Source: Rhodospirillales bacterium (GTDB lineage Bacteria; Pseudomonadota; Alphaproteobacteria; Acetobacterales; Acetobacteraceae). Taken from it: a DNA stretch of 42,671 nt. The DNA lies in the NCBI GenBank assembly GCA_028869595.1, contig JAGWRU010000006.1, forward strand, positions 1 to 42,671. Reading direction: 5' to 3'. The notes beneath the pieces were generated by a model. The model was not told where the DNA came from and searched no databases. It was given only the letters and a program-made list of their open reading frames with translations. Every line of letters begins with the position of its first letter. Positions within the stretch are counted from its first letter, which is position 1. Below are positions 1,693 to 7,599 of the stretch, piece by piece. The translations under genes and the position numbers were made by a program.

Positions 1693-1826
1693 GGCGGGCA
1701 GCACTCCCAAAGCGGATTGGTCGCCGAGTGTAGCAGCCCGGCCCCGCTTTGCCATGGAGCGGGAGAGAAGGCGCGGCGGCACCGGGCTTGCTTTCCCATC
1801 CCGGATCGCCGCGCTATCACCGCTTC

Positions 1827-2831
1827 ATGCCGATCGCCACCGAATATCTGCTGGATACGCCCGCCGGACGGGCCCGTGCCGCCGCCCTGCTGGGCAGCGG
1901 CCGGCTGGTCGCCTTCGCCACGGAGACCGTCTATGGCCTGGGCGCCGATGCCACCGATGCGCGCGCCGTGGCGGGCATTTTCGCCGCCAAGGGCCGCCCG
2001 CGCTTCAATCCGCTGATCGCGCATTACCCCGACGCCGCCGCCGCCTTCGCCCATGTCGCCGCCGATGCGCGGGCGCGCAGCCTGGCCGCCGCCTTCTGGC
2101 CCGGCGCGCTGACGCTGGTACTGCCGCGCGCCGCAGCGTGCCCGGTCGCCGAGATCGCTGGCGCCGGCCTGCCGTCGCTCGCCGTGCGGGTGCCCTCCCA
2201 TGACGGGGCGCGGGCCTTGCTGCGCGCCATCGGCCGCCCGGTTGCCGCGCCTTCGGCCAATCCTTCCGGCCGCGTCTCGCCGACGACCGCCGCGCATGTG
2301 CTGGAAGGGCTGTACGGACGGATCGACGCGGTGCTGGAAGGCGGCGCCTGCCCGGTCGGGGTGGAATCGACGGTGCTCGACCTGACCGGCGCCGCGCCGC
2401 GCCTGCTGCGCCCCGGCGGCATCCCGCGTGAGGCGATCGAGGCGGCGATCGGCCCGCTCGCGATCGCCAACACGTCCGATGACAATGCCCCGCGCGCGCC
2501 GGGCATGCTGTCCTCGCATTACGCACCGTCGCTGCCGCTCCGCCTGGATGCGCGCGCGGTCGGCTCGGATGAGGCGCTGCTGGCCTTCGGCCCGCCCTTG
2601 CCGGGCGCGCGCATGGTGTTCAATCTGAGCCCCGAGGGCGACCTGACCGAGGCGGCGGCGCGGCTTTTCGCGGGGCTGCGCAGCCTCGATCGCGCGGCAC
2701 TTCAGGCCGGCTGCACCGCCATCGCCGCTATGGCAGTGCCGGGGCGCGGCCTGGGATTGGCCATCAATGACAGGCTGGCGCGCGCGGCAGCGCCGCGACC
2801 GGCCGGCACGGAAGGAACGCATCCATCATGA
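1827..2831 (+). CDS. L-threonylcarbamoyladenylate synthase (Sua5/YrdC/YciO family)
   Basis: MPIATEYLLDTPAGRARAAALLGSGRLVAFATETVYGLGADATD...KGRPRFNPL...APSANPSGRVSPT...GVESTVLDL; the C-terminal Sua5-type domain is present. Confidence 0.93.
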   Translation: MPIATEYLLDTPAGRARAAALLGSGRLVAFATETVYGLGADATDARAVAGIFAAKGRPRFNPLIAHYPDAAAAFAHVAADARARSLAAAFWPGALTLVLPRAAACPVAEIAGAGLPSLAVRVPSHDGARALLRAIGRPVAAPSANPSGRVSPTTAAHVLEGLYGRIDAVLEGGACPVGVESTVLDLTGAAPRLLRPGGIPREAIEAAIGPLAIANTSDDNAPRAPGMLSSHYAPSLPLRLDARAVGSDEALLAFGPPLPGARMVFNLSPEGDLTEAAARLFAGLRSLDRAALQAGCTAIAAMAVPGRGLGLAINDRLARAAAPRPAGTEGTHPS

Positions 2832-3715
2832 TCGAAGCGCCCAAAGCCCAGATCCCCGGCATTTACCGCCGCCGCATCGGCGATATCGTCGTCACCGCCT
2901 TGAGCGACGGCTTTCTCGACGGTGCGCTCGACGTGCTGCGCAACATCACGCCGGAGGAGACCGGGCGCATCCTGGCGGATAATTTCCGCCCCGGCCGGCG
3001 CACCTCGGTCAACGGCTTCGCCATTCATTCCGCCGGGCGGCTGGCGCTGATCGAGACCGGCTGCGGCACCTATATGACGCCGACTTCCGGCTTCCTGCGC
3101 CGCAACCTGCTGGCCGCCGGCATCGATCCGCATGATGTGGAAGCGGTGCTGCTGACGCATATGCATCCCGATCATTCGGCCGGCCTGTCGGATACGCGCA
3201 GCTTCGCGCCCTTCTTTCCCAATGCCGAGCTGGTGGTGCATGAAGCCGAGCCGCGCCACTGGCTGGACGATGCCGCGATGGCGCGCGCGACGGAGCGCGA
3301 GAAGAAGCTCTATTTCCAATGCGCGCGCGAGCAGATCGCGCCGTATCGCGCCCGCATGCGCAGCTTCGCCAAGGAGACGGAGGTGTTTCCCGGCGTCACC
3401 GCGATTCCGATGCCTGGCCATACGCCCGGGCACAGCGCCTATCTGATCGCCTCCGGCAAGGAACAATTGCTGATCTGGGGCGACACGGTGCATGTGCCGG
3501 AAATCCAGATCCCGCGCCCGGAAGTGACCATCGCCTTCGATACCGACCCGGATGCGGCGGCAACCACCCGTAAGCGCGTCTTCGACCGCGTGGCGAGCGA
3601 CCGGCTGCTGGTCGCCGGGATGCATCTGCACTTCCCCGGCTTCGCCCATCTGGTGCGCGGCCCGGCCGGCTATGCGCTGCTGCCCGAACCTTGGGTGCAG
3701 TTTCTCGATCGATGA
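2828..3715 (+). CDS. MBL-fold metallo-hydrolase
   Basis: LLTHMHPDHSAGL (HxHxDH), PGHTPGHSAYLI, WGDTVH. ATGA overlap with the preceding gene. Confidence 0.92.
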   Translation: MIEAPKAQIPGIYRRRIGDIVVTALSDGFLDGALDVLRNITPEETGRILADNFRPGRRTSVNGFAIHSAGRLALIETGCGTYMTPTSGFLRRNLLAAGIDPHDVEAVLLTHMHPDHSAGLSDTRSFAPFFPNAELVVHEAEPRHWLDDAAMARATEREKKLYFQCAREQIAPYRARMRSFAKETEVFPGVTAIPMPGHTPGHSAYLIASGKEQLLIWGDTVHVPEIQIPRPEVTIAFDTDPDAAATTRKRVFDRVASDRLLVAGMHLHFPGFAHLVRGPAGYALLPEPWVQFLDR

Positions 3716-3832
3716 AGGCGCGGGGATAGGCGGGATGCATCCGGTCCACCCCGCTGTCGCGTAATCCCTGCATGCGCCCCGGCGTCAGCCTTGCGGCGGC
3801 GCGCGGCGGCAAAGCATGCAGGGAAGAATGCG

Positions 3833-4384
3833 ATGGCGATGCGGATTGCGGCGCCGGCGGCGGCGATTCTGTTCGGCCTGGCCGGCTGCGCGAATAACCG
3901 CGTGGCACATTTCGCCCAGGGCAGCCCATCCATGGCGCCGCCGGACTGGATGGTGGGCACGGTCGACGGATACGGCATCGTGGTCGACCGTTTCGGACAT
4001 ATCGCAACGCAGTTCCGGGCCCATGAAGTCGGGCATTGGGACAGCGCACGCCGCACGCTGACCCTTGTCGAGCACATCACCTACCCGCAGGGCGACGGCA
4101 AGCCGCAGGACCGCATCTGGCATTTCGTCGAACATGGCAAGGGAGAGTGGACCGGCACCGCGAATGACGTGCTCGGCACCGCCCATGCCGAGCAGGCCGG
4201 CAATGCCTGGCATCTGCAATTCGATCAGATGCTGCCGGTCGGCGGCAGCCGGATCGCGGTTGCGGTCGATGACTGGCGCCTGCGCGAGGCGGGCGATGTG
4301 GCGGTGGATTACTCCACCCTCAGCAAGCTGGGGGTGACGCTGGCGACGGCGGAGATCGCCTTCGTCAAGCGGGCGAAGAAATAG
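3833..4384 (+). CDS. DUF3833-like putative lipoprotein
   Basis: Signal with lipobox-like LFGLAGC, then VDGYGIVVDRFGHIATQF...WHFVEHGKGEWTGTANDVLG...DDWRLREAGDVAVDYSTLSKLGVTLATAEIAFVK, resembling the DUF3833 pattern. Confidence 0.7.
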   Translation: MAMRIAAPAAAILFGLAGCANNRVAHFAQGSPSMAPPDWMVGTVDGYGIVVDRFGHIATQFRAHEVGHWDSARRTLTLVEHITYPQGDGKPQDRIWHFVEHGKGEWTGTANDVLGTAHAEQAGNAWHLQFDQMLPVGGSRIAVAVDDWRLREAGDVAVDYSTLSKLGVTLATAEIAFVKRAKK

Positions 4385-4404: not shown

Positions 4405-5160
4405 CTACCCCGCCGCCGGAATCCAGTTGTACAGCGCGAGCCCGCCATCCACCGCCACCGTGGTGCCGGTCACGTACCCGCTGAAGCGGTCGCAGAGCAG
4501 CGCCACCGCCATGCCGGCGATATCCGCCGCCGTGCCGGGCCGACGCATCGGAATGATGCGCGAGAATGCCTCCACATCCGCCGCGAAGCCGCCGCCGGGA
4601 ATGGCTCCCGGGGCGATCGCGTTCACCCGGATACCGTCCGGGGCAAGCGCGCGGGCAAGCTCGCGGGTCAGCATGGTCAGCCCCGCCTTGGCGGCGCTGT
4701 AATGCGGCAGGTTGCGCGGCGTTTCGGCGTGCAGGGAGGTGACGAACAGCATTTTTCCGCCCTTCCCGGCGGCGCGCATCGCCCGCCCCGCCGCCCGGCC
4801 CAGCACGAAGCCGGCACGCAGATTGATGTCGATCATCGCATCCCACTCGGCCTCGGTCACGGCGAGCGCGGTCTGGCTTTCCGCCCGGCGCGGCGCGGCG
4901 GAATGGACCAGAATGCTCACCCCGCCCAGCGCGGCCTCGGCGGCGGCGAACAAGGCCCCCGGCGCGGCCCGATCGGCGAGGTCGGCGGGCAGAAACACAG
5001 CCCCCGGCACGGCAGCCAGGGCGGCCTCGCGCAAAGCGGGCAGATCGCTGATCGCAACCGCCGCCCCCTCCGCCGCCAGGGCGGCGGCGATGCCCCGCCC
5101 GATCCCCGATCCCGCCCCGGTCACCAAAGCCCGCTCGCCCGCCAGCAATCCGTCCGCCAT
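4405..5160 (-). CDS. SDR family oxidoreductase
   Basis: MADGLLAGERALVTGAGSGIGRGIAAALAAEGAAV... TGxxxGIG motif, YSAAK catalytic motif (HYSAAKAGL), C-terminal VDGG. Confidence 0.9.
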   Translation of the reverse strand: MADGLLAGERALVTGAGSGIGRGIAAALAAEGAAVAISDLPALREAALAAVPGAVFLPADLADRAAPGALFAAAEAALGGVSILVHSAAPRRAESQTALAVTEAEWDAMIDINLRAGFVLGRAAGRAMRAAGKGGKMLFVTSLHAETPRNLPHYSAAKAGLTMLTRELARALAPDGIRVNAIAPGAIPGGGFAADVEAFSRIIPMRRPGTAADIAGMAVALLCDRFSGYVTGTTVAVDGGLALYNWIPAAG

Positions 5161-5181
5161 CGCCGATCCCCCTCCCACATG

Positions 5182-5255
5182 CCGCCGGGCGCTTGTCTCG
5201 CGCCGGCCGGCGTCGGATATCTTGCCCGGGGAAGAAGGATGCCGCCATGCCTGCC
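5182..5255. repeat. 74-bp perfect direct repeat, copy 1
   Basis: ccgccgggcgcttgtctcgcgccggccggcgtcggatatcttgcccggggaagaaggatgccgccatgcctgcc; identical to 6110-6183 (offset 928), with mismatches immediately on both sides. Confidence 0.97.
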
Positions 5256-5307
5256 TGCTGCTAGTATGCAACGTTAGGCCAGGATCCGAACATCAGGAGG
5301 GTGGAGC

Positions 5308-5664
5308 ATGCCGGCCAATCCGCGACCCCGCCCGGCAAGCGGCGAGCGCCGTGCGATTGCCGCGTTCCTGAACCGGCTGCGCGGCACCTATGACGTATCC
5401 GGGTCGATCCTGTTCGGATCGCGGGCGCGCGGCGAGCACCGGGCAGATAGCGACCTCGACCTCGCCGTCCTCCTCCGCGGCCAGCGCGGAGATCTCGTCG
5501 AGGCGAAGCTCGACATGGCCGGGCTGGCATTCGACGTACTGCTGGAGACCGGGATCCTGGTCCAGGCACTGCCGCTGTGGGAGGAAGATCTCGCGCATCC
5601 GGAACGGTTTTCCAACCCGGCGCTGCTGCGCAGGATCGAACGCGAAGGCATTCGCCTCGGATGA
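5308..5664 (+). CDS. MNT-type nucleotidyltransferase domain protein
   Basis: GSILFGSRARGEHRADSDLDLAVLL (GSxARG...SDxDL motif) and a later FDVLL; RBS-like aggagggtgg upstream; ATGA overlap with the HEPN gene. Confidence 0.9.
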   Translation: MPANPRPRPASGERRAIAAFLNRLRGTYDVSGSILFGSRARGEHRADSDLDLAVLLRGQRGDLVEAKLDMAGLAFDVLLETGILVQALPLWEEDLAHPERFSNPALLRRIEREGIRLG

Positions 5665-6059
5665 GGCCGGACCTCATGAACAAGGCGCGGACCGCGCTCG
5701 CCTCGGCCCGCATCCTGCTGGAAGCGGGCGATACGGATGGTGCCACGAACCGCGCCTATTATGCGATGTTCGATGCGGCCATCGCGGCCCTGGCCTGGGC
5801 CGACCCCGATATCGGGCACGATCCTCCCAGGACGCATGGCGGGCTGATCGCGCGCTTTGGTCGGAGGCTGGTGCAGACCGGGGTGCTCTCTGCCGCATAT
5901 GGGCGCGCCTTCAATCGTGTGCAGGAGCTTCGCCTGACAGCCGATTATCTGGCCGCGCCCGTGACATCGGAAAAAGCCGCATGGGCCATCGGCGAGGCGG
6001 AAAATTTCGTCGCGGCGATCGCGCTCGCGCAGTCCGGTCCTTCGCCGCCAACCGGCTGA
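5661..6059 (+). CDS. HEPN-domain protein (PF05168/UPF0332-like), partner of the MNT nucleotidyltransferase
   Basis: MRPDLMNKARTALASARILLEAGDTDGATNRAYYAMFDAAIAAL...THGGLIARFGRRLVQTG...ELRLTADYLA; typical RAYYAMF and LR..ADY pattern. Confidence 0.87.
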   Translation: MRPDLMNKARTALASARILLEAGDTDGATNRAYYAMFDAAIAALAWADPDIGHDPPRTHGGLIARFGRRLVQTGVLSAAYGRAFNRVQELRLTADYLAAPVTSEKAAWAIGEAENFVAAIALAQSGPSPPTG

Positions 6060-6109
6060 GCCTGCTTGCCGCCCCCGCCCGCGCCGCCGCGCGGCGCGCA
6101 ACTCCGGGA

Positions 6110-6183
6110 CCGCCGGGCGCTTGTCTCGCGCCGGCCGGCGTCGGATATCTTGCCCGGGGAAGAAGGATGCCGCCATGCCTGCC
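6110..6183. repeat. 74-bp perfect direct repeat, copy 2 (overlaps leader and first three codons of the FAD oxidase gene)
   Basis: Identical to 5182-5255; contains the ATG CCT GCC start at 6175. Confidence 0.97.
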
Positions 6184-7599
6184 GCCGAAATGTCCGAACT
6201 GCTTGCCGCCATCGCCCAGCGGGTCGGCCCCGCCGGGCTGCTGACCGATCCGGCCGATACCGCCGCCTATGCCGAGGATTGGCGGCGCCTTTATCAGGGC
6301 CGCACGCAGGCCGTGGTGCGCCCGGCAAACACCGCCGAACTGGCCCAGGTGATGGCGCTGGCAGCCAAGGCGCGGATCGCCATCGTGCCGCAGGGCGGCA
6401 ATACCTCGATGGTGGGCGGGGCGGTGCCGGCCGAGGATGGCAGCCAGATCGTGCTCAGCCTGGCCCGCATGCGCACCATTCGCGCCGTTGATCCGGTGGA
6501 CATGACCATGACCCTCGATGCCGGGGTCACGCTGAAAGCCGCGCAGGACGCGGCGGCCGCAGCGGGCTGCATGCTGCCGCTCTCGATCTCCTCGGAGGGT
6601 ACGGCGCAGATCGGCGGCGTGCTGGCCACCAATGCCGGGGGCAACAACACGGTGCGCTACGGCAATGCCCGTGATCTGGTGCTGGGGCTGGAGGTGGTGC
6701 TGGCCGACGGGGCGGTGTGGAACGGGCTGCGCCGGCTGCGCAAGGACAATACCGGCTACTGCCTGCGTCAGTTGTTCGTCGGCGCCGAAGGCACGCTCGG
6801 CATCATCACCGCCGCCGTGCTGAAGCTGGTGCCGCGCCCGCGCGAGGTGGCCGTCGCCCTTTGCGCGGTTGCCTCGGTGGAGGCAGCGCTGGCCCTGTTC
6901 GCGCGGTTTCAGGCGCATGATCCGGCGGCGATCCAGGCCTTCGAATACATGTCCGGCCCCGGCATGGGCTTCGTGCTGCGCCATATTCCCGGCGCCAGCC
7001 TGCCGCTGGCCGCGCCCGCCGATCACTATGTGCTGATCGAACTCGCCACCCCGCGCCCGGAAGCGGGGCTGCGCGCCAGCCTGGAGGCGGTGCTCGGCCA
7101 GGCGATGGAGGATGGGCTGGTCGCCGATGCGGCGCTCGCCGAAAGCGAGGCCCAGCGCGCCGCCATCTGGCGCCTGCGCGAGGAGCATTCGGAGGCGCAG
7201 AAGCGCGAAGGCGCCTCGATCAAGAACGACGTCTCGGTGCCGGTCTCGCGCGTGCCGGAGCTGATCGCGCGGGCCTCGGCGGCCTGTCTGGCGCTGCTGC
7301 CGGGCGTCCGCCCGGTGCCGTTCGGCCATATGGGCGACGGCAATATCCACTTCAACCTGGAACAGCCGCCGGATATGGACGGCGCCGCCTTCCTGGCCTG
7401 CGATCATGAGATCATGGATGCGGTCAACGCGGTGGTGCGCGACCTCGACGGCTCCTTCTCGGCCGAGCACGGGGTCGGGCGCCTGAAACCTTATATGATG
7501 GCGGAATGGCGCGGCGGGGCGGAACTGGCCATGATGCAGCGGATCAAGGCCGCCCTCGATCCTGCCGGGCTGCTCAACCCGGGCAAGGTGCTGCCCTGA
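6175..7599 (+). CDS. FAD-binding oxidoreductase, GlcD / D-2-hydroxyacid dehydrogenase family
   Basis: VPQGGNTSMVGGAVP (FAD-binding), ISSEGTAQIGGVLATNAGGNN, FVGAEGTLGIITAAVLKLVP, FGHMGDGNIHFN, SAEHGVGRLK. Confidence 0.93.
   Translation: MPAAEMSELLAAIAQRVGPAGLLTDPADTAAYAEDWRRLYQGRTQAVVRPANTAELAQVMALAAKARIAIVPQGGNTSMVGGAVPAEDGSQIVLSLARMRTIRAVDPVDMTMTLDAGVTLKAAQDAAAAAGCMLPLSISSEGTAQIGGVLATNAGGNNTVRYGNARDLVLGLEVVLADGAVWNGLRRLRKDNTGYCLRQLFVGAEGTLGIITAAVLKLVPRPREVAVALCAVASVEAALALFARFQAHDPAAIQAFEYMSGPGMGFVLRHIPGASLPLAAPADHYVLIELATPRPEAGLRASLEAVLGQAMEDGLVADAALAESEAQRAAIWRLREEHSEAQKREGASIKNDVSVPVSRVPELIARASAACLALLPGVRPVPFGHMGDGNIHFNLEQPPDMDGAAFLACDHEIMDAVNAVVRDLDGSFSAEHGVGRLKPYMMAEWRGGAELAMMQRIKAALDPAGLLNPGKVLP

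Follow-up and report, generated by a model that had tools for sequence, protein, structure and literature searches.

A recently captured MNT–HEPN cassette? A two-gene insert between perfect 74-bp direct repeats in a divergent intergenic region of an Acetobacteraceae genome

Results and discussion

A perfect 74-bp direct repeat encloses the cassette

The locus described here raises the question of how a two-gene MNT–HEPN cassette came to lie at the start codon of a FAD-linked oxidase gene, between two identical copies of that gene's upstream sequence. The window (the whole stretch of 42,671 nucleotides that was analyzed, which is the entire contig C54) belongs to the genome assembly of an uncultured bacterium, 3.44 Mb in 256 contigs and 86.7% complete. 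A repeat search of the window returned positions 5182–5255 and 6110–6183 as a perfect 74-bp direct repeat with a spacing of 928 bp, the copies diverging immediately outside both ends, exactly as described in an earlier reading made from the sequence only. The features of the locus were assigned as follows.

4405–5160, minus strand: SDR-family oxidoreductase gene (PF13561/PF00106), left neighbour; from ORF, Pfam and the G112 orthologue
5182–5255, plus strand: left repeat copy; from the repeat search, with promoter-like boxes matched by eye to those of relatives
5247–5264, plus strand: relic start, a 5-codon ORF (MPACC, then a stop); from sequence and translation
5256–6109, plus strand: unique part of the insert, 854 bp, between the repeat copies; missing from the orthologous G112 site
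5308–5664, plus strand: MNT gene, 118 amino acids; from PF01909/PF18765, PADLOC PDC-S09 and motif
5661–6059, plus strand: HEPN gene, 132 amino acids; from PF05168
6110–6183, plus strand: right repeat copy, with promoter-like sequence, leader and first three oxidase codons
6175–7599, plus strand: FAD-linked oxidase gene (PF01565, PF02913; GlcD-like), right neighbour; from ORF and Pfam

At the base composition of the window, chance would be expected to give perfect repeats of up to ~16 bp, and ~5e-32 pairs of 74-mers. The whole genome assembly holds these two copies and no third. A 287-kb sample of the genome, made up of the window and 21 contigs or parts of contigs of the same assembly, was screened for perfect direct repeats of 24 bp or longer; the 74-bp repeat was the sole interspersed one, and all the others were tandem short-period arrays.

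Each copy reads, in order, TTGTCT...GATATCTT, the leader and ATG CCT GCC, which confirmed the claim that the repeat includes the oxidase leader and first three codons. The right copy ends after oxidase codon 3 (ATG at 6175, M-P-A-A-E). The left copy now lies upstream of both MNT and the divergent SDR gene, and its ATG runs into the insert as the relic 5-codon ORF, which stops 43 nt before the MNT start. When repeat and insert were collapsed, 86 bp separated the SDR and oxidase start codons; the ancestral divergent SDR–oxidase region anticipated by the sequence-only reading was thus recovered, with the refinement that the repeat accounts for 74 of those 86 bp, counting nine oxidase coding bases.

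Several relatives have TTGACC...GATACC-type boxes ahead of the oxidase, and by eye the two boxes of the repeat correspond to these. A sigma-70 promoter scan of positions 5000–6300 found no promoter, so the assignment of an oxidase promoter is drawn from conservation; judged in this way, the repeat likely carries it. A terminator scan of the same positions gave one weak terminator-like site, which was not above shuffles. Between the promoter-like boxes, both copies contain a 12-bp perfect palindrome, CGCCGGCCGGCG (5201–5212 and 6129–6140), which is missing from the G112 site described below and is a possible candidate operator.

A related genus retains an empty site

An empty site with one intergenic copy had been predicted, and was found on contig C230 of G112 (locus L039), a genome from another genus of the same family. 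Here, the SDR and oxidase genes (65 and 79% identical to those of the window, respectively) are divergent across a single 81-bp intergenic region, with no cassette and with one promoter-like set, TTGACC...GATACCTT. Because the comparison crosses genera, it displays the ancestral layout and not the exact pre-insertion sequence. Taken with the repeat, this site bears out the proposal that a unit of ~928 bp entered the SDR–oxidase region with the oxidase 5' end kept.

Identity to the nearest oxidases of the family is ~80%, and the upstream neighbours of these are mostly different. When 398 family genomes were searched with the SDR–cassette–oxidase DNA, the cassette lay beside the oxidase or SDR gene in none, strong cassette matches being on other contigs only; at 29 oxidase loci, no MNT or HEPN gene was present upstream within the sequence examined. 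The window's genus is represented by a single genome, the window's own, and an SDR scan of genome contigs for a closer empty site returned no locus with an adjoining oxidase. The insertion is documented in one genome only.

Relatives differ in what separates the threonylcarbamoyl-AMP synthase gene from the oxidase (1824–4384 in the window). In the window, the MBL, DUF3833 and SDR genes and the cassette lie between these two genes, which are nearly adjacent in G068; in G025 (from the genus of G112), threonylcarbamoyl-AMP synthase is followed by the MBL-fold gene and then the oxidase, with neither SDR nor cassette. Given the G025 gene order, the stretch preceding the oxidase varies, and the threonylcarbamoyl-AMP synthase–oxidase interval is a local insertion hot spot.

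The insert carries an MNT–HEPN pair and no transposase

Only the MNT and HEPN genes lie between the repeat copies, as first read; no other ORF of the insert matched known families. MNT is directly upstream of HEPN, both on the plus strand, and the ORFs overlap by ATGA. The MNT protein retains an intact GSx10DxD motif (GSRARGEHRADSDLD, residues 37–51) and scores 40 bits against the NCBIfam MntA cut-off of 60. The HEPN protein matches PF05168 at 1.5e-13. A search of it for the HEPN RNase motif (Rx4-6H or RX4HXY) gave no match; RLTADY stands in its place, D occupying the position of the motif H, and THGGLI contains a conserved H. Many PF05168 members likewise lack the canonical motif. Homologues share this R..xDY pattern, with their conserved H in xHxGxx. 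Replacement of the motif H by D, with a conserved H elsewhere, is the HEPN-T pattern (PMC3710099), and on these residues and its family match the protein falls within HEPN-T (PF05168). Motif-less HEPN proteins proved toxic in a genome-scale screen (PMC3710099). On sequence grounds, a toxin–antitoxin function for the MNT–HEPN pair is plausible but unproven. The GC3 of the cassette (0.77–0.80) is lower than that of its neighbours (0.83–0.88), which is weakly consistent with a foreign origin.

By ORF and family search, the insert contains no transposase, tnpA, tnpR or recombinase gene, so the absence of a transposase or integrase noted at first reading stands. No terminal inverted repeat pairs the ends of the insert.

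Origin of the insertion

The explanation that we favour, with a confidence that is about evenly balanced, is that a small MNT–HEPN segment was captured once and recently by general recombination or repair, with no dedicated transposase. The target would have been the 86-bp intergenic region between the divergent SDR and FAD-oxidase genes, and the most likely route, which we infer, would be a single crossover of a small circularized fragment, or homology at one end combined with illegitimate joining at the other; such capture can leave the insert flanked by direct duplicates of resident sequence. There is precedent in E. coli, where 56 of 60 clones from tests of homology-facilitated illegitimate recombination were instead duplications, produced by single crossovers of a shortened circle (PMC3240628). 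The insertion is probably recent, since the repeat copies are perfectly identical. ComEC is present in the genome, but is common. A homology-based route requires a donor in which the 74-bp oxidase upstream region adjoins the cassette, and none was found; moreover, 74 bp is short for a RecA-dependent crossover, and a donor-free local repair duplication would fit the same anatomy. The crossover or homology route is therefore preferred over local repair only modestly.

Break repair with local duplication is a possible, although clearly less probable, origin. Here, staggered nicks or a stalled fork ~74 bp apart would have been refilled, or copied anew through template switching, as an 854-bp fragment of foreign or ectopic origin became joined to the site; the duplication would be a by-product. 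A homologous donor is not needed, perfect copies would be produced, and the insert has neither a terminal inverted repeat nor a recombinase gene. Ku was not found in the 86.7%-complete genome, so that a Ku-independent route would be required. Against this origin, 74-nt staggering that captures a whole operon would be unusual; a microhomology signature, in turn, could be assigned only with an identified donor.

Site-specific integration is unlikely. The 74 bp would in that case serve as an attachment core, and an integrase or transposase acting in trans would have moved the module, itself a satellite or remnant. Genomic islands are known to have long att cores that restore the end of a gene, and related MNT/HEPN pairs are found in recombinase contexts: one adjoins a Tn3 transposase gene on a Nitrosomonas plasmid, and resolvase–MNT fusions occur on plasmids. 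Such pairs travel, and the module is therefore mobile in a broad sense. Against site-specific integration, the insert has no recombinase gene, the site was used once only in the family sample, and the G112 site is too dissimilar to show a common core. Homologous MNT–HEPN pairs, found in relatives, on plasmids and in the same genome (MNT 37–69% identical), likewise lack conserved ends or repeats. The sequence-only reading had proposed a search for the cassette at other loci with locus-specific flanking repeats, and no such repeat was clearly above shuffles: across ~16 distinct homologous cassettes, several of them distant or near a contig end, the best flanking direct repeats were at about shuffle level, and no terminal sequence was held in common with the ends of the window's insert.

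Several observations were made alongside this comparison. A paralogue in the same genome (G000, contig C177; L063:7635–8333), with an MNT ~51% identical and a HEPN gene split by a frame break, is without flanking repeats. A serine resolvase–MNT fusion in one polypeptide, followed by a HEPN gene, is present in a family genome (L066:3516–4415), and the same layout occurs on plasmids (e.g. L192:5446–6354, Sphingobium plasmid pTK3); the polypeptide is possibly a recombinase–antitoxin fusion. A resemblance between the left end of the insert and the resolvase part of these fusions (CAACGTTAG) was dropped, as it was not above shuffles. For a viral carrier, phage records gave no HEPN match, and viral contigs, searched at a depth that detects close relatives only, gave no MNT relative.

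An assembly artefact, in which metagenome assembly merged an empty chromosome with a separate circle or with duplicated reads, is very improbable, even though the window is one contig of a 256-contig, 86.7%-complete assembly. Several contigs that start in copies of one insertion sequence share 138–141 nt before unique sequence; the assembler therefore probably used overlaps much longer than 74 bp, and both junctions of each repeat copy were probably covered directly. Mis-assembly, an early concern, is thus made unlikely by contigs that extend through 138 nt of insertion-sequence repeat, close to double the 74 bp, and the 287 kb holds no second interspersed repeat of 24 bp or more. Exact contig-end overlaps that would reveal the assembler's k were absent among the sampled full contigs. 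Insertion-sequence copies ending GTCTCCGGGAAACCCGGGCCGGTTCA break contigs at the starts of L183, L207, L208, L209 and L181.

Least credible of all is a recombinase-less minimal HEPN/MNT unit that spreads by copying the target promoter region to each side, whereby neither neighbour would be harmed and the module would gain a host promoter at each target; the undescribed minimal TA-type mobile unit that had been suggested finds no support in the homologous cassettes, which lack clear flanking repeats or shared ends, and movement of the 928-bp unit on its own is not supported. The case looks like a single one-off insertion of a module type already known and not like a new kind of mobile element.

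Predicted expression and stability

Following a one-off capture, the oxidase promoter in the left copy would drive MNT–HEPN, and this copy probably hands the module a host promoter. The SDR gene would also be read from the left copy, and the oxidase from the right copy, possibly with read-through as well, such that each neighbour would retain its original upstream sequence. The module could be lost through slippage or RecA recombination involving the two copies, exactly restoring the empty site. The locus would then be a snapshot of a small toxin–antitoxin-like module settling in a chromosome without a transposase, in which duplication of the divergent promoter region spares both neighbours, may supply the module's promoter and permits precise deletion. 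With several strains, the case could serve to test the resistance of such a module to loss by repeat recombination.

Comparison with known systems

The cassette resembles type VII HEPN/MNT (HepT/MntA) systems, and especially HEPN-T (PF05168) pairs, in its upstream MNT gene, overlapping ORF ends and GSx10DxD motif. It differs from type VII in that its HEPN protein lacks Rx4-6H and RX4HXY and its MNT protein falls below the MntA cut-off.

Tn3 elements generate 5-bp duplications. Transposons of the Tn3 family carry toxin–antitoxin passengers, including TnSod9 with HEPN–MNT (PMC7157771), and the homologous pair next to the Nitrosomonas plasmid transposase gene is a further instance of HEPN/MNT on mobile DNA. 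Unlike Tn3 elements, the window's insert is without tnpA, tnpR and terminal inverted repeats.

In the E. coli single-crossover work, the duplications in 14 sequenced recombinants measured 109–950 bp (PMC3240628), whereas the natural duplication described here is 74 bp. The two are alike in anatomy, with captured DNA enclosed by directly duplicated resident sequence and no transposase.
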